Assembly: GCF_943736985.1 (NCBI RefSeq)
Contig: NZ_CALSFS010000002.1
Span: 62,001 to 126,000 of the forward strand
DNA length: 64,000 nt
Origin: Clostridium sp. Marseille-Q2269
Lineage (GTDB): Bacteria; Bacillota; Clostridia; Clostridiales; Clostridiaceae
Direction: 5' to 3'
The notes beneath the pieces are model-generated. The model was not told the origin of the DNA, did not search any database, and was given only the letters and a program-made list of their open reading frames with translations. Shown here in pieces: positions 5,554 to 63,670 of the stretch (its first letter is position 1; the number at the start of each line of letters is the position of its first letter). The position numbers were made by a program, and so were the translations under genes.

Positions 5554-5586
5554 ATTTTTGCCTCCATTTTATTTATTTTAAAAAAT

Positions 5587-5943
5587 TCAACTTCTTGCTA
5601 CTAATATTACTCCTATCAATATAAATGCAACGCCTATTATTCTTATAGGGGTTATGTTTTCTTTAAAAAAGAAATAGGAACATATCATTACTAATACATA
5701 ACCTAAGCTTACCATTGGATATGCATAACTTAGTTCTACTTTACTTAATACTTTTATCCATAATAAAAAACTAACTCCATAAGATATTATACCTGCCATT
5801 ACTGGAAGGTTTTTTAATATAGATATTATGCTAGGGAGAAACTGTGATGGAGAAAAATTTAATACTAAATTAACTGCTCCATACTTTACTAATATTTGAC
5901 CTAATGCTCCTAGAAAAACTGATGTTAATATTAAATATATCAT
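5587..5943 (-). CDS. SMR/EamA-type small flippase-like protein (ArnE/ArnF-like)
   Basis: The 118-residue protein is predicted to be four membrane helices and is half the size of a full EamA transporter. The block ELSYAYPMVSLGYVLVM followed by FFKENITPIRIIGVAFILIG is typical of SMR-fold transporters, including the ArnE/ArnF flippases of aminoarabinose-phosphoundecaprenol. Its ATG overlaps the stop of the glycosyltransferase gene by 4 bases (ATGA), so translation is coupled. From this context I infer that it flips a polyprenyl-phosphate-linked sugar across the membrane. A drug efflux role is an alternative but is less favoured by the neighbours. Confidence 0.75.
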   Translation of the reverse strand: MIYLILTSVFLGALGQILVKYGAVNLVLNFSPSQFLPSIISILKNLPVMAGIISYGVSFLLWIKVLSKVELSYAYPMVSLGYVLVMICSYFFFKENITPIRIIGVAFILIGVILVARS

Positions 5944-7226
5944 CTTCTTATCTCCTTAAGTAGAAATATAATATGTTTAATAAGATAAACCCAAAAGTAT
6001 ATCATTATAAATGTCACTGGGAAAGCATATCTACCTTGACCTTCAGTAACAAAATATACAGATGTAAACATATAAAATAAAATTGTAGAGTATAAATTAA
6101 ACTTATTTAATTTTTCTGTTCTTCTTTTTATTATTTGTATCAATATAAAAATGCTATATATAAATATATATATAATAGCTGGAATAAAAAATAAATTTCT
6201 TATGTTATTTGTTATAGGAAACAATAAAAATTTTACATTATCATTTATAGTAGTTACACCATGAATACTATACAATACATCATCTGACCACATATATGTA
6301 TTAAAAAGTCTCTTAAATCCTAGTATAACAAATTCTTTTGGATGAGATTTTATCCATTTTTTAGCTGCTTCTTTAAGCATTTTATTTTTGCCTGTATAAG
6401 AAGCTTTTTTATATGCTTCTGTTTTAGCTATGGAATTTTCTACATCTTGTACATCCATCCATCTTCCCATGTTATTTTGGGAATTATTATTTATATAGAG
6501 TACTATACCTCCGTTATTTGATACGAATGTACGCTCTCCATTATATTTTGTATTTCTATAACTCCAAGGACTTAAACAAATTAAGGCTATTACAACTATT
6601 ATTATAGCTGATTTTAAAGATTTTATAAAAGATTTTTCTTTTAATAATTCTACTAAAAATATTGCAAAAGCATATAATAGGAAAAATGGCTTTACCATAG
6701 TTGCAGCTCCTACTATTATACCTAAAATTATATATTTGTATTTTATATCACTAAAGTACAAATATGTTACTAATAAAAGTAATGTAGTAAACAATATTTC
6801 TGTACCTACAACACTATTAAAAAATATATTATTAGGGAATAGAGCAAACAAGGTAAATACTATTCTTCTATTTCTTTCTGTAATCTGAGTTTTTCTTAAA
6901 ATACCTAAAAATAACACTTGTCCAAAAAAAGTAAGTACTAAATTAAATATTTTAGCTAAGGTTAAACTTGCTCCAAAAAGTTTAAAAAGTCCACCTAATA
7001 CTATACTATATCCTACAGATGTGTAGGTATCTCCCCATTCTCCTCCATTGGCTATATCTATAGCTAATTTATAATAATAGTGAAAATCTGAAAAAGGCTT
7101 TGTGTCTACAATAACTACCCAAAGAATACAAAGTATCATAGATAAGCCTATTATTATTTTATAATAATTTGATTTACTACAATTATTATTTTTATCTTCA
7201 CAACTACTTAAATAATTAAATTCCAT
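5940..7226 (-). CDS. GT-C membrane glycosyltransferase (GT39/ArnT-like)
   Basis: The 428-residue polytopic membrane protein has roughly ten hydrophobic segments. An acidic residue lies in the first external loop (PFSDFHYYYKLA, near residue 47), as expected for GT-C enzymes that use polyprenyl-phosphate sugars. The SPWSYRNTKYNGERTFVSNN block and a soluble stretch of about 100 residues before the last helices fit the family. Upstream is the UbiA-like gene and downstream, overlapping by 4 bases, the small flippase. The acceptor, whether cell-wall polymer, lipid or protein, cannot be read from the sequence. Confidence 0.75.
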   Translation of the reverse strand: MEFNYLSSCEDKNNNCSKSNYYKIIIGLSMILCILWVVIVDTKPFSDFHYYYKLAIDIANGGEWGDTYTSVGYSIVLGGLFKLFGASLTLAKIFNLVLTFFGQVLFLGILRKTQITERNRRIVFTLFALFPNNIFFNSVVGTEILFTTLLLLVTYLYFSDIKYKYIILGIIVGAATMVKPFFLLYAFAIFLVELLKEKSFIKSLKSAIIIVVIALICLSPWSYRNTKYNGERTFVSNNGGIVLYINNNSQNNMGRWMDVQDVENSIAKTEAYKKASYTGKNKMLKEAAKKWIKSHPKEFVILGFKRLFNTYMWSDDVLYSIHGVTTINDNVKFLLFPITNNIRNLFFIPAIIYIFIYSIFILIQIIKRRTEKLNKFNLYSTILFYMFTSVYFVTEGQGRYAFPVTFIMIYFWVYLIKHIIFLLKEIRR

Positions 7227-31065: not shown

Positions 31066-34000
31066 TTAAAGACTAAATAATGATATTTGATTAGTTTCTT
31101 GCATTCCTCTTAGGCACCCATGGTTTTCTAATGTTTCTATAACAGTTTTAGTAACTTTTGTTCTAAGCCTTAAATCCTCTTTTGATATAAATTCTCCATC
31201 TACTCTTGCTTCTTCTATACTTTTAGCTGCATTTTTTCCTACACCTTGAAGAGCACTTAAAGGTGGCCTTATACTATCTTTTTCTATTAAAAATTTAGTA
31301 GCATTAGATTTATATAAATCTACCTTTAAAAATTTTATACCTCTTTTATACATTTCGTAAGATATTTCAAGTATTGTTAAAAGCCCTTTATCCTTTTGTG
31401 TTATATTGTTTCCCATGGCATACAGTTCATTCATTTTTTCTTTTATTTTTTCTTCTCCCTTTACTATTAAATCTGCATCAAAATCATCTGCTCTAACAGA
31501 AAAGTAAGTGGCATAATATGCCTTTGCATAGTATACCTTAAAATAAGCAATTCTCATGGCCATCATTACATAAGCCACAGCATGACCTTTAGGGAACATG
31601 TATTTTATCTTTTTGCAAGACTCTATATACCAATCTGGTACATCATGTTCCTTCATTGTAGCTTCGTGTTCCTCTGTAAGCCCTTTACCCTTTCTTACTT
31701 TTTCCATTATAGTAAAAGCAGTTTTAGGTGGAAGATTTTTTTGAAGTAAATACATCATTATATCATCTCTTGTTGATATGCAATCTTTTATAGTTGTATA
31801 TCCTTCTTTTATGAAATATTGGGCATTGTTAAGCCATACATCTGTACCGTGGGATAGTCCTGATATTCTTACCAACTCTGCAAAACTTTTAGGCTTAGTA
31901 TCTACAAGCATTTGCCTTACGAATTTAGTTCCAAATTCAGGTAACCCATAAGTACCAACAGGACAATCTATATCCTCTTCTGTTACTCCTAAAGCTTCAG
32001 GAGATGTAAATAAACTTATAACTTTTGAATCTCCTAGTGGTACAGTTTTAGGATCTACATTTGTTAGATCTTGAAGCATTCTAAGTACCGTAGGATCATC
32101 GTGTCCTAATATGTCTAATTTTAAAAGTCTACCACTTATAGAATGATAATCAAAATGAGTAGTTACAACATCACTTTCCGTATCATCAGCTGGATGTTGT
32201 ATTGGTGTAAAATTAAATATTTCATTATCCGCAGGCACCACCATAATTCCTCCCGGATGTTGTCCCGAAGTTCTTTTTACTCCTGTACATCCTTTGGACA
32301 ATCTTTCTATTTCTGCATTATTAGCTTTTAGGTTTTTTTCATCTAAATATTTTTTTACGAATCCATAAGCCGTTTTTTCCGCTATAGTACCAATTGTTCC
32401 TGCCTTAAAAACATGCCCCTTTCCAAAAAGAACCTCTGTATATTTATGAACTACACCTTGATATTCTCCAGAAAAATTTAAATCTATATCTGGTTCTTTA
32501 TCTCCTTCAAACCCTAAAAAAGTTTCAAAAGGTATGTCATGACCATCTTTTTTTAACGTAGTTCCACACTTTGGGCAATCTTTATCCTCTAAATCAGCTC
32601 CTGAACCTATAGATCCATCAGTAAAGAATTCACTATATTTACATTTAGGACAAACATAATGAGGTGGTAATCCATTAACTTCTGTAATATCTGACATGGT
32701 AGCTGCAAAAGAAGATCCAACAGATCCTCTGGAACCTACTAAATATCCATCTTCATAAGATTTAGCCACTAATTTATGAGCTATTAAATAAAGCACCGCA
32801 TATCCATGATTTATTATAGAATTTAATTCCTTGGTCAATCTTTTTTCTACTATTTCGGGAAGCTGTTCACCATATATTTCATGAGCTTTTTTTATAGTCA
32901 TGTTTCTTATATCTTCTTCTGCCCCTTCTATTTTAGGCGGAAAAGTTTCATCTGGTATTGGCTTTATATTATCTATCATATCTGCTATTTTATTTGTATT
33001 ATAAATTACTACTTCCTTTGATTTTTCTTCTCCTAAATATTCAAATTCTTTGAGCATTTCATCTGTAGTTCTAAGATAAAGTGGTGGCTGATTATCTGCA
33101 TCACTAAATCCTTGACCTGACATTAATATTCTCCTAAAAACTTCATCATCTTTATCTAAAAAATGTACATCACAGGTAGCCACTACAGGTTTATTATAAA
33201 ACTCACCTAACTCGCATATCTTTCTGTTTATTTCTTTTAGTTCTTCTTCATCTTTTACTGATCCATTCTTTACAAGGAATTCATTGTTCCCTAAAGGTTG
33301 AATTTCTAAATAATCATAAAAATCCACCATATTTTTTAGTTCCTCTTTTGTTTTTCCTTTTAGTATTTCTTTATATATTTGACCAGCTTCACAAGCAGAT
33401 CCTATTATAAGCCCTTCTTTGTACTCATTTATAAGGCTTTTAGACATTCTTGGTTTCTTGAAAAAATACTCTAAATTAGATCTAGATACTAATTTATATA
33501 AATTTTTCAGACCTACTGCATTCTTAGCCAAAATTATTAAATGGTAGGTAGGCTCTTTCTTTATATTTATATTTCCTAAAAACTCTTTATTTAAATTATG
33601 TAAAGTAGTTATTTCTTTTTCTTTTAGCATTTCAAAGCATTTTAATAATATATCTGCTGTTGCTTTAGCATCATCTACGGCCCTATGGTGATTTTCTAAT
33701 GATATGCCTAAATGTTTTGCTATAACATTTAATTTATATCTCTTTAATTCTGGAAATAAAAATCTACTTAATGTTACTGTATCCATTACACTATTTTCAA
33801 ATTCTATTTTTAAATCTTTACAATTTTTATTTATAAATGATACATCAAAAGATGCATTATGGGCTACCACTACAGAATTTCCTATAAACTCTATGAATTT
33901 TGGTAATATTTTATCTATAGTGTGTGCATCTCTTACCATATTATCTGTTATACTTGTAAGCTCTGTAATTTTGTCTGGTATATTCCTTTCAGGATTTACA

Positions 34001-35364
34001 AATTCGCTAAACCTATCTACTATTTTACCCTCTTCTATCTTAACTGCACCTATTTCTATTATTTTATCATTTTTACTTGAAAAACCTGTAGTCTCTAAAT
34101 CAAAAACTACAAAAGAATCTTCTATAGTTTTATCTCTTGTTTTAGATACAATAGGTACTCCATCATCTACAAGATAGGCTTCTATTCCATATATAACTTT
34201 TATATTGTTTTTTTTGCCTGCAGCCATGGCATCTGGATAAGCTTGAACTACGCCATGATCTGTAATAGCCACTGCCTTATGTCCCCATTTACCTGCTGTC
34301 TTAACTAATTCTGATACTGGAGTCATTCCATCCATAGCACTCATTTGACTATGCATATGTAATTCTACTCTTTTTTCTTCTGCTATATCCATTTTTTCTA
34401 TTTTTGTAGTCTTAACTATATCTTTGGCCATTATTACACATTCTCTTGCATAAGGATCATTTACAACTTCACCTCTAACTTTGCAATAAAGTCCTTCTTT
34501 TATTTCTTCTATTATTCTATCTGCATCTTTAGGTCTTGGGAAAAGCTTAACAGTCATAGAATTAGTATAATCTGTTATAAAAAAAGTCACTATTTTTCTT
34601 CCGGTTTTTGTTTCTATAACTTCTTTTTTAAATACATCCCCACATACTACTACTATGCCAGAATTCTCATTTAAATCCTTCATAAATACAGTATCTTCTC
34701 TTATACTTCTTCCTAATATTATAGCTGTATCCTTAGAATTTTCTTCACTTGCTCTTGATGCAATTTCTTTTTTAACTGCTTTCTTCTCCTTAGCTTTAAT
34801 TTCACTTAAAACATTCTTTACTATAGATTGCTCCATTGTTTCTATAGTTTTAAAATATTCCTCTTCATTAAATGATTTATCATATTCTAATTTCACATTG
34901 CATTCTATTCCAAATACATCTCTTATATAGGACTTCAATTTCCCTTCAAATTTATTTTTAGAAAGAAACCTACATAAAAATTCATTGTTATATATTATGT
35001 TTATACCATCTTCTGATACTTTTCTTTTAGACTTCAAAAGACAGTCTCTTGCAATTGGCACTGAAGATGATGCTAAATTTACTATATCCACCCAGTACTT
35101 TTTTGAAAGCTCTTCTAAGGTAATATTAGATAAATCCCTATAACAAATTATTTCAAAATCCTCTACCATTGAAAATCTATCTCTTAATAATTTTCTTATG
35201 TGATCTTCCTTTTCCTTAGTAAAGTTTTCAATGGATTTTAATATTATTTTTAGTTTATTCTTTTTTCTAAAATATTGAACTCTTATTATTTTTAGCTCTT
35301 TATCTATATCAAATTCTTCCTTATTTATTTCCTTTTGTAAATCGCTAGCCGAAGTATTTTCCAT
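31066..35364 (-). CDS. polC: DNA polymerase III PolC-type alpha subunit
   Basis: The 1432-residue replicative polymerase of low-GC Gram-positives. An N-terminal domain and an OB fold (residues about 230-330) precede a PHP domain ([15 protein letters not shown]). The proofreading exonuclease inserted in the PHP domain begins with [14 protein letters not shown]. The palm contains [13 protein letters not shown] zinc module has CPKCKYSEF and CPKCGTTL. Helix-hairpin-helix repeats and a beta-clamp-binding tail ending QISLFSL follow. AGGAGG precedes the ATG. It lies downstream of ispG. Confidence 0.97.
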
Positions 35365-51511: not shown

Positions 51512-51526
51512 TGAAAGGTGATATTT

Positions 51527-51898
51527 ATGCATTATTGCAATAAAGATATAGGCTCTCTAGGAGAAGGCATAGCTGCTGATTATATCAAAAATCTTGGATA
51601 TATTATATTAGAAAAAAATTTTAGATGTAAATTAGGAGAAATAGATATAATAGCTAAGGATAAAAATTTTATTACATTTATAGAAGTTAAAACTAGATAT
51701 AGTTCCATTTATGGTACTCCTGGTACAGCCATAACTATAAAAAAACAAAATAGAATTTACAAAACTGCACAATTTTATATGTTGAAAAAATCCATCTTCA
51801 ATAAATTTTATTTTAGATTTGATGTAATAGAAATAATCTTGAACACATCAAATAATAAATATTCCTTAAACCTTATAAAAAATGCTTTTCAAATATAA
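51527..51898 (+). CDS. yraN: YraN family (UPF0102) endonuclease-like protein
   Basis: The 123-residue protein has a PD-(D/E)XK nuclease fold. LGEGIAADYIKNLGYIILEK precedes the core, where GEIDIIAKD and FIEVKTR supply the Asp and Glu-x-Lys residues. Its function is unknown. The ATG at 51527 has AAAGGTGAT just upstream; the GTG at 51518 lies inside that site. It is 15 bases after yifB, hence one operon. Confidence 0.88.
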   Translation: MHYCNKDIGSLGEGIAADYIKNLGYIILEKNFRCKLGEIDIIAKDKNFITFIEVKTRYSSIYGTPGTAITIKKQNRIYKTAQFYMLKKSIFNKFYFRFDVIEIILNTSNNKYSLNLIKNAFQI

Positions 51899-54676: not shown

Positions 54677-55021
54677 TTATATTCTTTCTTTAACTTTTGC
54701 TGCCTTACCTACTCTATCTCTTAAGTAGTATAGTTTAGCTCTTCTTACTTTACCTTTTCTTACAACTTGGATCTTTTCAATTAATGGTGAATTAACTGGA
54801 AAAGTCTTTTCAACTGCTACGTTGTATGCAACTCTTCTTACTGTGAAAGTTTCTCTTGCTCCACCATTTTGTCTTTTTATAATTGTTCCTTCAAATACTT
54901 GAACTCTTTCTCTAGTTCCTTCTTTGATTCTTTGGTGAACTTTTACAGTATCTCCTACATTGAATTCTGGTAAGTCATTTCTTATTTGTTCTGCTTCTAT
55001 AGCTTTTATAACTTCTAACAT
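54677..55021 (-). CDS. rplS: 50S ribosomal protein L19
   Basis: A 114-residue L19 at the subunit interface. [18 protein letters not shown] and [20 protein letters not shown] are diagnostic. GGAGGG precedes the ATG. It is a single-gene transcript with its own promoter, conserved leader and terminator. Confidence 0.97.
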
Positions 55022-56503: not shown

Positions 56504-56731
56504 CTATATTATTTCAACAACAACTCTTTTATTTTCTTTTATAGCCGCTGCCTTAACAACAGTTCTAATAGCTTTTGCTATTCTTCCCTGTTTTCCTATT
56601 ACTTTTCCCATATCTTCAGGTGCAACTTTTAGTTCAAGAATTACGGATTGTTCTCCTAAAATTTCATTCACTTGAACTTGATCTGGGCTATCAACTAATG
56701 CTTTCGCTATAGTTTCTACTAAAGCCTTCAT
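56504..56731 (-). CDS. khpA: KH domain RNA-binding protein KhpA
   Basis: A 75-residue single KH domain protein; KhpA binds RNA with KhpB in some Gram-positives and affects cell division. The GxxG loop lies in [23 protein letters not shown] precedes the ATG. It lies between rpsP and rimM, as usual in Firmicutes. Confidence 0.92.
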
Positions 56732-56751: not shown

Positions 56752-57000
56752 CTATTTAACAGAAATACCTGCTTTTTCGATTAATTTTTTAACTGTATCA
56801 GTTGGTTGAGCACCGTTTTTTATCCATTTTTGAACTTTTTCTTCATCTAATTTTATAGTTGAAGGTTCAGTTATTGGATTATAGTATCCTATTTCTTCTA
56901 CAAATCTACCATCTCTTGGTGATCTAGAATCAGCAACTACTACTCTATAAAATGGAGCCTTTTTAGCACCCATTCTTTTTAATCTAATTTTTACTGCCAT
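56752..57000 (-). CDS. rpsP: 30S ribosomal protein S16
   Basis: An 82-residue S16. [20 protein letters not shown] and [16 protein letters not shown] are diagnostic. The ATG at 57000 follows AAGGAGGTG; the codon at 57009 lies within that leader and is rejected. It forms an operon with ffh upstream and khpA downstream. Confidence 0.97.
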
Positions 57001-57030
57001 GTTTTTCACCTCCTTAAAAAGTCTGTTTAT

Positions 57031-59032: not shown

Positions 59033-59944
59033 TTAAAATAATGCTTCTACAAACTCTTCAGGACTAAATTCCTGTAAATCATCTATTCCTTCTCCAACTC
59101 CTATAAGTTTTACTGGTATATCAAGTTGGTCTTTTATAGATATTACTACTCCTCCCTTTGCTGTTCCATCTAATTTTGTAAGTATTATGCCATGTATAGG
59201 ACAAGCTGACATGAATTCTTTAGCTTGTATAACAGCATTTTGACCTGTGGTAGCATCCAAAACTAACAATGTTTCTTTAGATGCTTCTTTATATTCTCTT
59301 TCTAGTATTTTATTTATTTTTGAAAGCTCATTCATTAAATTCTTTTTGTTATGTAATCTTCCTGCAGTGTCACATATTAGCACATCGGCTTTTCTTGATT
59401 TAGATGCTTGAACTGCATCAAAAACCACTGCTCCTGGATCAGAACCCTCTTGATGTTTTATTATATCTACTTTAGCTCTACTACTCCATACCTCTAATTG
59501 ATCTATAGCAGCTGCTCTAAAGGTATCTGCTGCAGCCATTACGACTTTATATCCTTGTTTTTTTAATTTTGCTGAAACTTTTCCTATGGATGTAGTTTTT
59601 CCTACACCATTAACCCCAATTATAAGCATAACTTTTGGAGTAGAATCTGGTGTTATAGATCCTTTTTCTTTTCCTAATATATCTAATATGACCTTCTTAA
59701 GACAAGGTTTAATTTCTGCAGGATCCTTTATTTTCTCTTCTTTTACTCGTTCTCTTAATCTATCTATAATTTTTATAGAAGTATCTACTCCTATATCAGC
59801 AGTAACTAGTATTTCCTCTAATTCTTCATATAAATCTTCGTCTATAGTTACAGCCAATTTTAACACATTACTTATTTTATCTGTAAATCCGTCCTTAGTT
59901 TTTGTTAATCCCTCTTTTAATTTATCAAAAAATTTTCCAAACAT
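59033..59944 (-). CDS. ftsY: Signal recognition particle receptor FtsY
   Basis: The 303-residue SRP receptor GTPase. The short N domain lacks the long acidic A domain of proteobacteria. The G domain holds GVNGVGKTTSIGKVS, DTAGRLHNKKNL and TKLDGTAKGGVV. GGGGAG precedes the ATG. It lies 35 bases downstream of smc, as in other Firmicutes. Confidence 0.95.
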   Translation of the reverse strand: MFGKFFDKLKEGLTKTKDGFTDKISNVLKLAVTIDEDLYEELEEILVTADIGVDTSIKIIDRLRERVKEEKIKDPAEIKPCLKKVILDILGKEKGSITPDSTPKVMLIIGVNGVGKTTSIGKVSAKLKKQGYKVVMAAADTFRAAAIDQLEVWSSRAKVDIIKHQEGSDPGAVVFDAVQASKSRKADVLICDTAGRLHNKKNLMNELSKINKILEREYKEASKETLLVLDATTGQNAVIQAKEFMSACPIHGIILTKLDGTAKGGVVISIKDQLDIPVKLIGVGEGIDDLQEFSPEEFVEALF

Positions 59945-59979: not shown

Positions 59980-62349
59980 TTATAAAGTAGCTGCTACCTG
60001 CTCTTTTGATGTTAAATCCACAGATATAATTTTTGATACTCCTTTTTCTTCCATAGTAACTCCATAAAGAGCATCGCAAGCTTCCATGGTACCCTTTCTA
60101 TGAGTTATAACTATAAACTGACTATTTTGTGAAAATTCCTTTAAGAAATCTGCATATCTAGATACATTAGCATCATCTAACGCAGCTTCTATTTCATCTA
60201 ATATACAAAAAGGTGTAGGCTTCATTCTTAAAATGGCAAATAACAATGCTATAGCAGATAGCCCCTTTTCTCCACCAGACATAAGATTTATATTCTGAAG
60301 TTTTTTACCTGGTGGTTGAACATTTATTTCTATATTAGCAGTAAGTTCATCTCCATTAGATAGTATTAAATCAGCACTACCACCTTTAAATAATTCTATA
60401 AAGGTTTCATTAAAATTCTTTCTTAATTTATTAAAGTTTTCACTAAATACACTTCTCATTTTATTAGTCATTTCATCAATAACATTTAAAAGCTCTTCTT
60501 TTGATTTTACCAAATCTTCCTTTTGATTATTCATAAATGTTATTTTTTCATATAATTCTTTATATTCTTCTATAGCTCCTACATTTACTGTACCTAAATT
60601 AGATATATCTATCCTTAAATTTTGTACGTGTTCTTTATATTTTATTACATTTATATCTTCTTTTTTATAATTGAGTGCTTCAGCATAAGTTAATGAAAAC
60701 TCCTCATTCAATTTATTATACAAATTATCTCTTTCTGTTATGTACCTAGTTTTTTGTATATCTTGTCTGTGAACCTCGTCTTCCTTTTTCACAAGAACTA
60801 AAGCTAAGTTTTCTTCTTTATTTTTATTTTTCTCTAATTCTTCCTTCAATTTTATTCTCTCAATTTCATACTTTTTAAATGTCTTTTCTAAGTTTTCAAG
60901 ATGAATATTTACATCCTTTATACTGTTTTCATTTATCTTTATATTACTTTCAAATTTTTCTATGTTTATTATATCCTCATTATTGCCTTTATTTATATTT
61001 TTATTTTCATAACTTAAATTTGTAATATTAATATTCATAGAATGTAATTCTTTTTTTATACTAACTAACATTTCATCTAACTTAGCTTTTTCTATTTTGT
61101 ATTCTATTAATTTATCTTTTATATTCTTCATATTTGCTTCTTCATTTTGAAGAAAATCTTCACATTTTTTTATGTCATTATGGTTCAAATCTTTTTTAAA
61201 CTTAAGTTCTTCTAATTGTTTTTGTGATATATCTATGTTATCCTCAATTCCTTTTATTTTTCCTTTAGTTAATTTAATTTCCTCTCTAGATATGTTTAAA
61301 GAATTCTTAAGTCTTTGTGAGTCTTCTTTTATAGCATTTAATTTTCCCGTAAATTTAGTTATTTCTATATTGTTATAGTAAATTTCATCTTTTATATTTA
61401 GATTTGTTTCATCTAAAGTTTTTATTCTATTTTTATTTTCTAATATATTGCTCATAAATTGCTCTATAATATTTTTTGTTTCTTCTAGCTCTTTTTTAGT
61501 CTCTTCTATTTCTCTCTTTCGGCTTATTATACTACTTCCAGCTCTATGTTTTATACTACCACCCGTTAGAGATCCACCTGGATTTATAACTTCCCCATCT
61601 AATGTTACTATTTTAAATGAATAATTTAATTTTTTAGCAATCTTTAATGCACTATCCATGTCTTTTGTTACTAGTGTCCTACCTAGAACATAGTCTATTA
61701 TATTAGAAAATTTCATATCATAATCTATAAGATCACTGGCTATACCTAGAAATCCATCTTGCATTGTTACATTGTTTATGTGAGCTCTTCTACCCTTTAT
61801 TGTAGTTAATGGCAAAAATGTAGCTCTTCCTAAATTTCTCTTTTTTAAATAATTTATTAAAATTTTTGCTTTATTTTCATCTTCTGTTATAACATTAGAT
61901 ATACTTGCACCTAAAGCTATTTCCATAGCTATTTCAAATTCTTTTTTTACTTTTATTACTTCACCTAAAACTTCACAGCCTCCATTAATATTATCTATCT
62001 TTCCACTTACTACGTGTTCCATCAAAGTTTTTACACTTCTATTATATCCTTCATAGTGCTTTTCCAAATTTGAAAGCATATGATAATTTGCTTCTAATCT
62101 ACTATAGGCCGCATTCTTCTCCTTTAGCTTTTTCTCTTTATTATTAAGAGATATTTTTAAAGAGGATATATTTCTACTGTTTTCTTTCAATTTATCTTCT
62201 AATAAAACTATATTTTCTTTTAGAGTTCTTATTTCCTTTTCTATATCTTCTCTAGTTTTTATATTTATATTTATAGAATTTATATAACTATCGCAGGAAT
62301 TCTTTATATTATCTAATTTATTTTTCAAGTTTATTATTTCATTTTCCAT
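59980..62349 (-). CDS. smc: SMC C-terminal fragment (hinge, second coiled coil, ABC tail)
   Basis: The 3' part of smc in its own frame, opening at an internal ATG (62349). It encodes 789 residues: a piece of the first coiled coil, the hinge near GGCEVLGEVIKVKKEFEIA, the returning coil, and the ATP-binding tail. No ribosome binding site precedes this ATG, and the same frame extends about 40 codons upstream to the A8 run, so it is not a separate gene. Confidence 0.7.
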   Translation of the reverse strand: MENEIINLKNKLDNIKNSCDSYINSININIKTREDIEKEIRTLKENIVLLEDKLKENSRNISSLKISLNNKEKKLKEKNAAYSRLEANYHMLSNLEKHYEGYNRSVKTLMEHVVSGKIDNINGGCEVLGEVIKVKKEFEIAMEIALGASISNVITEDENKAKILINYLKKRNLGRATFLPLTTIKGRRAHINNVTMQDGFLGIASDLIDYDMKFSNIIDYVLGRTLVTKDMDSALKIAKKLNYSFKIVTLDGEVINPGGSLTGGSIKHRAGSSIISRKREIEETKKELEETKNIIEQFMSNILENKNRIKTLDETNLNIKDEIYYNNIEITKFTGKLNAIKEDSQRLKNSLNISREEIKLTKGKIKGIEDNIDISQKQLEELKFKKDLNHNDIKKCEDFLQNEEANMKNIKDKLIEYKIEKAKLDEMLVSIKKELHSMNINITNLSYENKNINKGNNEDIINIEKFESNIKINENSIKDVNIHLENLEKTFKKYEIERIKLKEELEKNKNKEENLALVLVKKEDEVHRQDIQKTRYITERDNLYNKLNEEFSLTYAEALNYKKEDINVIKYKEHVQNLRIDISNLGTVNVGAIEEYKELYEKITFMNNQKEDLVKSKEELLNVIDEMTNKMRSVFSENFNKLRKNFNETFIELFKGGSADLILSNGDELTANIEINVQPPGKKLQNINLMSGGEKGLSAIALLFAILRMKPTPFCILDEIEAALDDANVSRYADFLKEFSQNSQFIVITHRKGTMEACDALYGVTMEEKGVSKIISVDLTSKEQVAATL

Positions 62350-62464
62350 TACATATATTTCATTGTTAAGATTTGAAGTATCACTTAGTATTTCTATTTC
62401 TTCAGATTTTAATATCTTTAATTTTTCCTCTTTTTCCTTTAATTCTTTATCAAAATTATTTATA

Positions 62465-63559
62465 TTACTTTTTTTTATTTATTTCTTCTCTTAAATAAGT
62501 TTCTTCTTGTTTCAAGTTATTTAATTTATTTTCCAATTCTTGTTTTTCTTTTAAATAATTTTGTAATCTTTCCTCATTAGTCTTTAATGTATTTTCTTTC
62601 ACTTTTATATTATCTTTTAAATTTTTTATTTTTTCTTTTAATAATATATTTTGATTTTCTATATCTTTATTTTTATCCTTATTATAATAATATTCTTCTT
62701 TATTCTTGCTATTATCTTTATCTAAAAGCTCTAGTTCATGACTAAGCTTTGAACACATATTTTTATACTGATCTTTTTCATTTTTTAAGTTATCTATATT
62801 TTCACTTAAAGAAACCATATTATTATTTATGTTTTCTAAATCTTTTTCTATTTTATCTATAGAATATATCATAATATTCACTTCTTTATTCTTTAACTGT
62901 TCTGATAATTCTAAAAACTTTTTAGCTTTAATACTGTCCTCTTTAAGTGGCTCTATTCTTTCTTCATAGGTATTTAATATATCTTTTATTCTTACAAGAT
63001 TTTGTTCTGTATTAGAAAGTTTTTTGTCAGCTTCTTCTTTTCTCCATTTAAATTTCACTATTCCTGCAGCTTCTTCTAAAAGACTTCTTCTTTCCTCTGG
63101 TTTTCCACTTAAAACTGCTTCTATCTTACCTTGTCCTATTATAGAGTATCCTTCTTTACCTATACCAGTATCCATAAATAATTCTTGTATATCTTTAAGT
63201 CTACATTGAGTATTATTTATATAATATTCACTTTCACCAGATCTATATAGTCGCCTAGTTATAGTTACTTCTGTATATTCTATAGGCAATTCTTTATCAC
63301 TATTATCTAATATCAACGAAACCTGACAAAGACCTACTTGTTTTCTATATTGTGTGCCAGCAAATATAACATCTTCCATTTTACTTCCTCTTAAAGATTT
63401 TACACTTTGTTCTCCTAATACCCATCTTACTGCATCAGATATATTGCTTTTTCCACTTCCATTAGGTCCTACTATTGCTGTGACTCCTTGTTTGAATAAT
63501 AATTCAGTTTTATCTGCAAAAGATTTAAAACCTCTTATTTCAATTGATTTTAAAAACAT
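62465..63559 (-). CDS. smc: SMC N-terminal fragment (ATPase head and first coiled coil)
   Basis: The 5' part of smc, 364 residues from the ATG at 63559. It holds the Walker A head (residues about 32-47) and the Q-loop region, then a lysine/glutamate-rich coiled coil that stops at REEINKKK. Without the distal head it cannot bind ATP as a complete SMC. Confidence 0.7.
   Translation of the reverse strand: MFLKSIEIRGFKSFADKTELLFKQGVTAIVGPNGSGKSNISDAVRWVLGEQSVKSLRGSKMEDVIFAGTQYRKQVGLCQVSLILDNSDKELPIEYTEVTITRRLYRSGESEYYINNTQCRLKDIQELFMDTGIGKEGYSIIGQGKIEAVLSGKPEERRSLLEEAAGIVKFKWRKEEADKKLSNTEQNLVRIKDILNTYEERIEPLKEDSIKAKKFLELSEQLKNKEVNIMIYSIDKIEKDLENINNNMVSLSENIDNLKNEKDQYKNMCSKLSHELELLDKDNSKNKEEYYYNKDKNKDIENQNILLKEKIKNLKDNIKVKENTLKTNEERLQNYLKEKQELENKLNNLKQEETYLREEINKKK
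62469..62476 (-). repeat. A8 homopolymer at the smc frameshift
   Basis: Eight consecutive A on the coding strand (T8 on plus), in the context AAT-A8-GTAA. Reading with seven A restores the SMC frame; with nine A or a -1 shift it meets TAA two codons later. Confidence 0.9.
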
Positions 63560-63571
63560 GTGGTACAACTC

Positions 63572-63670
63572 CTATCTGGCAAAAAACATTGGTAATATAC
63601 TAGCAATAAATACAATAGCCATAACAGCAACTAAAACTTTAGTCATTTTTTCTCTTTTTTCTCTTTTCAT
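63572..63670 (-). CDS. DUF4044 family small membrane protein
   Basis: A 32-residue ORF: a basic N terminus (MKREKREKMTK) and one membrane helix (VLVAVMAIVFIASILPMFF). The ATG follows GGGAGG at a good spacing. It ends 13 bases before the smc ATG, and the smc ribosome site overlaps its stop, so the two are coupled. It fits the DUF4044 family of tiny proteins; function unknown. Confidence 0.72.
   Translation of the reverse strand: MKREKREKMTKVLVAVMAIVFIASILPMFFAR

Follow-up and report, generated by a model that had tools for sequence, protein, structure and literature searches.

A frame break at a run of eight adenines divides smc in a clostridial contig

Is the smc gene of Clostridium sp. Marseille-Q2269 truly broken, and if so does the cell make any use of the break? 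The question is raised by a 64,000-nucleotide stretch of contig NZ_CALSFS010000002.1 (positions 62,001 to 126,000 of the forward strand; hereafter the window, with positions counted from its first nucleotide), in which smc, on the minus strand near the window end, was found by open reading frame (ORF) reading and by profile matching of both pieces to occupy two reading frames. There is a single frame change, it is confined to a run of eight adenines (A8), and both pieces are SMC-like. An artefact or a private mutation is the most likely cause, and the evidence tilts towards a homopolymer-length error in the assembly. It is not evidence for recoding, and no sign of the cell using the break was found. 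If the break is an error, annotation would label smc a pseudogene although it is probably not one; if it is genuine and kept, the strain would offer a natural test of how little or how fragmented SMC a clostridium tolerates. Interest in the locus is low unless the broken tract proves genuine and kept. Literature searches found no relevant paper on a frameshifted or split smc, and nothing usable on smc essentiality in Clostridium.

The frame break and its alignment with intact relatives

The 5' piece matches positions 1-363 of the 1181 positions of the bacterial SMC model SMC_prok_B (TIGR02168) with 444.8 bits, and the 3' piece matches positions 400-1181 with 573.8 bits, to be read against a curated cut-off of 567.35 that is set for the whole protein. 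Both pieces match the same model, and the locus is therefore one smc gene in two frames: the model is matched over head, coiled coil and hinge, in pieces, and what this record lacks is a single continuous reading frame. The 5' piece carries the Walker A motif GPNGSGKS. The 3' piece holds the remainder of the coiled coil, the hinge, the second coil and the C-terminal ATPase half, with the signature motif SGGEKG and with Walker B. An earlier reading made from the sequence only had described the motifs as intact on both sides, which agrees with these matches and with the lack of any other lesion in the gene.

On the coding strand the break reads AAT AAA AAA AAG TAA, and the A run is exactly eight bases long. 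A stop at 62481-62479 limits the downstream frame on one side, and on the other the upstream frame is closed from 62467 on. Both frames are therefore open together only over 62478-62465, which confines the break to the A8 run and its edges. This is the same site, read in the same way, that the sequence-only reading had picked out, and its estimate of about 40 open codons joining the 789-codon downstream frame comes to 43 codons, from 62478 to 62350. Relative to the upstream frame, the downstream one lies at +1 (modulo 3), and the shift needed is, as had been stated, +1 or -2 and not -1. The site takes up codons 361-364 out of about 1,190, roughly 30% of the way into the gene. Coordinates are collected in Table 1.

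Table 1. Features of the divided smc locus and its surroundings, in window coordinates
Feature	Coordinates	Strand	Description and basis
smc 5' piece	62465..63559	-	ATG at 63559, 364 codons and TAA; carries the N-terminal ATPase half and the beginning of the first coiled-coil arm
smc 3' piece	59980..62349	-	789 codons plus stop; first ATG at 62349
Open stretch of the downstream frame	62350..62478	-	43 codons; gap-free alignment with intact relatives; no ATG, GTG or TTG
A8 run at the frame break	62469..62476	-	T8 on the plus strand; sequence reading
Premature TAA of the upstream frame	62465..62467	-	Sequence reading
smc ribosome-binding site, AGGAG	63569..63573	-	9 nucleotides ahead of the ATG; overlaps the stop codon of the short ORF that precedes smc
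DUF4044-like ORF directly upstream of smc	63572..63670	-	32 codons; E 0.0029, 17.5 bits, under the curated cut-off of 21.8
ftsY, next gene downstream of smc	59033..59944	-	Intact; ORF reading and family match
Hairpin and overlapping promoter-like site	58933-58902 and 58912-58884	-	Sequence reading; promoter scan

For comparison, 100 distinct intact smc-length frames were taken from the loci of relatives, and the 56 of them with a guanine-plus-cytosine content below 33% were aligned (three pairs among these are more than 95% identical). The N piece of the window gene, the 43-codon stretch and the C piece were added to this 56-row alignment as separate fragments. The nearest named relatives over the 3' piece were Clostridium magnum and C. 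tetanomorphum, at 54%, in a scan that started from six short peptide patterns. No copy from the same or a near species was found in the searches made: the highest Ffh identity listed for the 206 family genomes was 83%, and 72,556 plasmid records gave no near match.

Around the site none of the 56 relatives has a gap, the surrounding block of 521 columns being complete in every row, and the N piece likewise needs none (364 residues in 364 columns). The downstream frame also aligns to the 56 intact relatives without gaps up to the break, and the split is for this reason more than a chance juxtaposition of frames. Mean identity to the relatives is 30.9% over the 40 columns after the break, 26.7% over the 90 before it and 31.6% over the following 90. 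Such constant spacing is at odds with a single added base, unless this lineage has lost a whole codon as well, and the earlier description of the site as carrying one extra base is accordingly not borne out by the relatives.

Sequencing error or real mutation

In the reading that we favour, the assembly would give the wrong length for a single A run, located in a coiled-coil stretch rich in A, T and lysine, and the organism itself would make an ordinary one-piece SMC. We infer that sequencing, rather than the cell, produced the wrong length. The frame change sits at a homopolymer and nowhere else in smc, which supports an error. In a survey of 1106 genomes, frameshifts that are single, unclustered and confirmed by protein matches are expected to be sequencing errors and not real indels (PMC3711429), and errors in long-read assemblies are reported to break genes or to remain uncorrected (PMC12007338, PMC8011154). 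Bacillus subtilis without smc is reported to fail on rich medium at 37 C (PMC4634966).

The state of the gene also favours an error, in that both pieces still match the SMC family. When the identity of the 3' piece was fitted against FtsY identity (435 other pairs from 30 loci), the window gene lay slightly above the line, with a mean residual of +1.75 inside a per-genome mean range of -2.9 to +4.7, so that relaxed selection on the 3' piece is not seen; the 30 loci were fetched by likeness to that piece, which may flatter its residual. Further decay and faster evolution, the signs of a pseudogene, are thus absent from two pieces that are both open and both match the model. The search of 206 family genomes listed 150 C-piece matches, and in 147 of these smc occupies one frame of at least 1177 codons; the exceptions are G140, G176 and G186, the last of which lies at a contig start. 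These three were rechecked along with six genomes outside the 150 listed (G138, G101, G154, G091, G053 and G094). A stop inside the match occurs in 29 of the 150 listed rows, and in the six that were checked it was the gene's own end (last or last-but-one codon).

The next most likely reading, though on balance less likely than an error, is a real mutation: strand slippage would recently have changed the A run and so truncated SMC in this strain or culture, a plain loss that is tolerated, is being purged or has been suppressed. The earlier list of options, in which the change was recent, an error or tolerated, was the right one. Homopolymeric A runs do mutate by strand slippage, the poly(A) of Listeria inlA being reported to do so about 1,000-fold above the average point mutation (PMC2831843). 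Such a mutation would have to be recent, because the gene shows no other lesion and the 3' piece no relaxed selection, and the gene is whole in nearly all of the listed matches (147 of 150).

Several observations weigh against an error and in part favour a real mutation. Outside smc the window gives the impression of a clean assembly, since the 51 of its 55 other coding frames that were compared with Pfam or NCBIfam showed no second split gene. Of these 51, 50 matched at the limits used and one (5943-7226) gave a weak match only; the remaining four frames, outside the comparison, are short (51518-51898, 54677-55021, 56504-56731 and 56752-57009). Poor assembly, as judged by other split genes in the window, was rejected for this reason. 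The window has 70 further coding A or T runs of at least seven, and no frame break was seen at any of them. A short-read assembly would seldom miscount A8. The gene can also be lost elsewhere: smc is reported to be dispensable in Staphylococcus aureus and Deinococcus radiodurans (PMC4634966), and to be deletable without an apparent growth phenotype in Corynebacterium glutamicum (PMC11898615).

A further point of the same kind comes from five other family genomes in which the smc frame is broken, mostly away from long runs, and where the breaks could be real lesions. These are G140 (locus L121), with one break, and G101 (L122), G154 (L123), G176 (L124) and G030 (L125), with two each; only two of the breaks, one in G176 and one in G030, are close to a run of at least seven. 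As a control, polC was found in one frame in G140 (1453 codons) and in G101 (1511 codons), so that poor assembly does not obviously explain their smc breaks. In G176, the lower polC score (E 4.4e-251, against E 0 in 198 of 206 genomes) suggests that the assembly is weak. One break in G154 overlaps the same protein stretch as that of the window, with runs there of six at most and a second break elsewhere. Genomes whose smc ends at a contig edge (G186, G091 and G048) were left out of the count. For 5 of the 206 genomes (G067, G090, G183, G196 and G202) the search gave no N piece. As a separate observation, the Clostridium locus L030 has at 5574-6572 a further incomplete match to 3' smc sequence, after the full gene and in another frame, which may be a duplication or a scaffold artefact.

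Less likely readings: slippage, switching or a two-piece SMC

If the tract were genuine and kept, SMC might be metered by rare slippage on A8, or might be made in two pieces that meet at the ATPase head. In either case the amount or the architecture of a condensin would hang on a homopolymer, and we regard the prospect as a long shot.

The sequence-only reading had proposed that transcriptional slippage on A8 could restore the frame in part of the messenger RNA and so give some full-length SMC, which we find improbable. The length of the run is suggestive. Slippage by the Escherichia coli RNA polymerase is described as undetectable on fewer than eight A's (PMC6260861), which puts A8 at the threshold, and insertion sequence elements with A8 in Deinococcus and Nostoc are said to be possible users of slippage (PMC1088944). 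In AT-rich Buchnera, homopolymer deletions are reported to occur, to be commoner than in E. coli and to rise with run length (PMC5574713), and there is a reported precedent for rescue in the A11 run of Citrobacter tssM1, at 20-25% (PMC4256274). The direction of the slip is the difficulty. About 80% of transcription insertions are reported to add one base (PMC5574713), and one added base leads here into the third frame, which is closed at 62462, so that slippage rescue is not supported. According to the same source, E. coli deletions rarely start in homopolymers, and its authors saw no frame-restoring error. With eight bases, the smc run also falls short of the nine or more at which selection is reported to set in for a large share of genomes (PMC1088944), and a one-base insertion in it fails to enter the productive frame. 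Slippage in dnaX of Thermus thermophilus is described at A9 (PMC1088944).

Programmed ribosomal frameshifting of the dnaX type fares no better. The break contains the slippery heptamer A AAA AAG, but a -1 shift on it enters the same closed third frame instead of the productive one. No stimulatory RNA structure was indicated in the 136 nucleotides around the site (z -0.32, with 72 of 200 shuffles folding as well or better), in a test that covers structures other than pseudoknots, and Rfam at its gathering scores gave no RNA signal.

Comparison of the tract among relatives, which the sequence-only reading had suggested as a check, also speaks against slippage. A run of eight or more overlapping the site (three codon columns) was found in 0 of 56 relatives, and the run is thus not conserved in homologues. 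In favour of slippage, C. magnum (L001) has an in-frame A7 that overlaps the site by one codon column, the only such case among the 56; A6 occurs at the site in one relative and A5 in nine. By length alone, the smc run is ordinary. The coding sequence of the window holds 71 A or T runs of at least seven, 12 of which are sense-strand A8 runs, that of smc included, and an in-frame A run of at least eight occurs somewhere in 27 of the 56 intact AT-rich smc genes.

Run lengths were compared with those expected when synonymous codons are permuted, using 500 shuffles for 57 coding pieces of the window and 200 shuffles for the smc genes of the relatives. In the window, A8 occurs 12 times against 15.9 expected, and 70 of 500 shuffles were as low, so that avoidance is not significant. 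A9 is absent (4.8 expected, 0 of 500 shuffles as low), as are runs of ten or more (2.9 expected, 3.6% of shuffles as low); in all, the 57 pieces have no run of at least nine where about 7.6 would be expected. In smc of the 56 relatives, A8 occurs 32 times against 64.1 expected and runs of nine or more occur 3 times against 36.5, a depletion of about 12-fold, with 0 of 200 shuffles as low in either case. The two tests disagree on A8, which is not significantly avoided in the window and is halved in smc of the relatives, where it may therefore carry a cost, a point in favour of slippage. In both tests the strongest depletion lies from A9 upward. A count near expectation for A8 in the window, together with the absence of A9, argues in the other direction, in that the cost seems to set in at nine. 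Nine is likewise the A or T run length from which selection is reported for a large share of genomes (PMC1088944). That coding A runs stop at eight in the window, and that A8 is thinned in smc of the relatives, hints at the length at which selection sets in among these AT-rich genomes.

A reversible on/off switch (phase variation) through changes in tract length is very improbable. Poly(A) switches are known in Firmicutes, with swrA and inlA as examples, and phase-variable tracts are described as lying closer to the 5' end of the gene (PMC2831843), whereas the smc tract lies well inside it, at codons 361-364. In addition, smc serves neither the cell surface nor motility, and the 56 relatives have not kept the run.

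We give still less credence to an SMC made of two polypeptides, in which the N piece would join a re-initiated C piece at the ATPase head and along the antiparallel coiled coil. The arrangement is imaginable because both ends of SMC are reported to form one head (PMC4255302). Against it, the 3' piece has its first ATG 115 nucleotides beyond the stop, and no Shine-Dalgarno sequence precedes this ATG, whereas smc and ftsY each have one. The second piece thus lacks the start and ribosome-binding site of its own that a second cistron would have, and no convincing restart site was found. None of the 150 listed C-piece matches, from a search of 206 genomes, showed an smc divided in two at this point; G154, which breaks in the same protein stretch, has its second break too. 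No adaptation to a two-piece SMC was seen.

Neighbouring features and comparison with known systems

Beyond ftsY, the 308-nucleotide gap that follows it contains a hairpin with the arms AAAGCTGTTAAGT and ACTTGACAGCTTT and T's at its end, which the terminator scan did not report. A promoter-like site, TTGACA-17-TATTAT (11 of 12 positions), overlaps the hairpin; such sites overall are no commoner than in shuffles. From these sequence features, ylxM-ffh may be transcribed separately from smc-ftsY. Elsewhere in the window, PolC (31069-35364, minus strand) is about 70% identical to PolC of some family genomes and only 53% identical to the listed match in genomes that SMC and Ffh place close, for example G002 and G102. 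This contrast may be a search effect, as only two candidates were scored per genome.

Set beside the bacterial condensin SMC as modelled by TIGR02168, the window gene shows the same near-complete model coverage, by its two pieces, and has ftsY downstream; it differs in not being in one frame. With tssM1 (A11) and dnaX (A9) it shares a poly(A) run before a stop, with the rest of the gene open in another frame. In contrast to these two, the smc run has eight bases, its commonest slip leads to a closed frame, and it is not conserved. The likeness to swrA of B. subtilis and inlA of Listeria, as these are described in PMC2831843, is that of a short A run whose length decides the frame. The smc tract differs in lying about 30% into the gene and not at its 5' end, in belonging to a housekeeping gene and in having no known variation in length. 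The closest likeness is to the single frameshifts of the 1106-genome survey (PMC3711429), from which no difference was found. Although the gene is unusual in its size and importance, it shares with them a lone frame change at a homopolymer, two halves that each match intact homologues, and a break that none of the 150 matches listed shows at that place.
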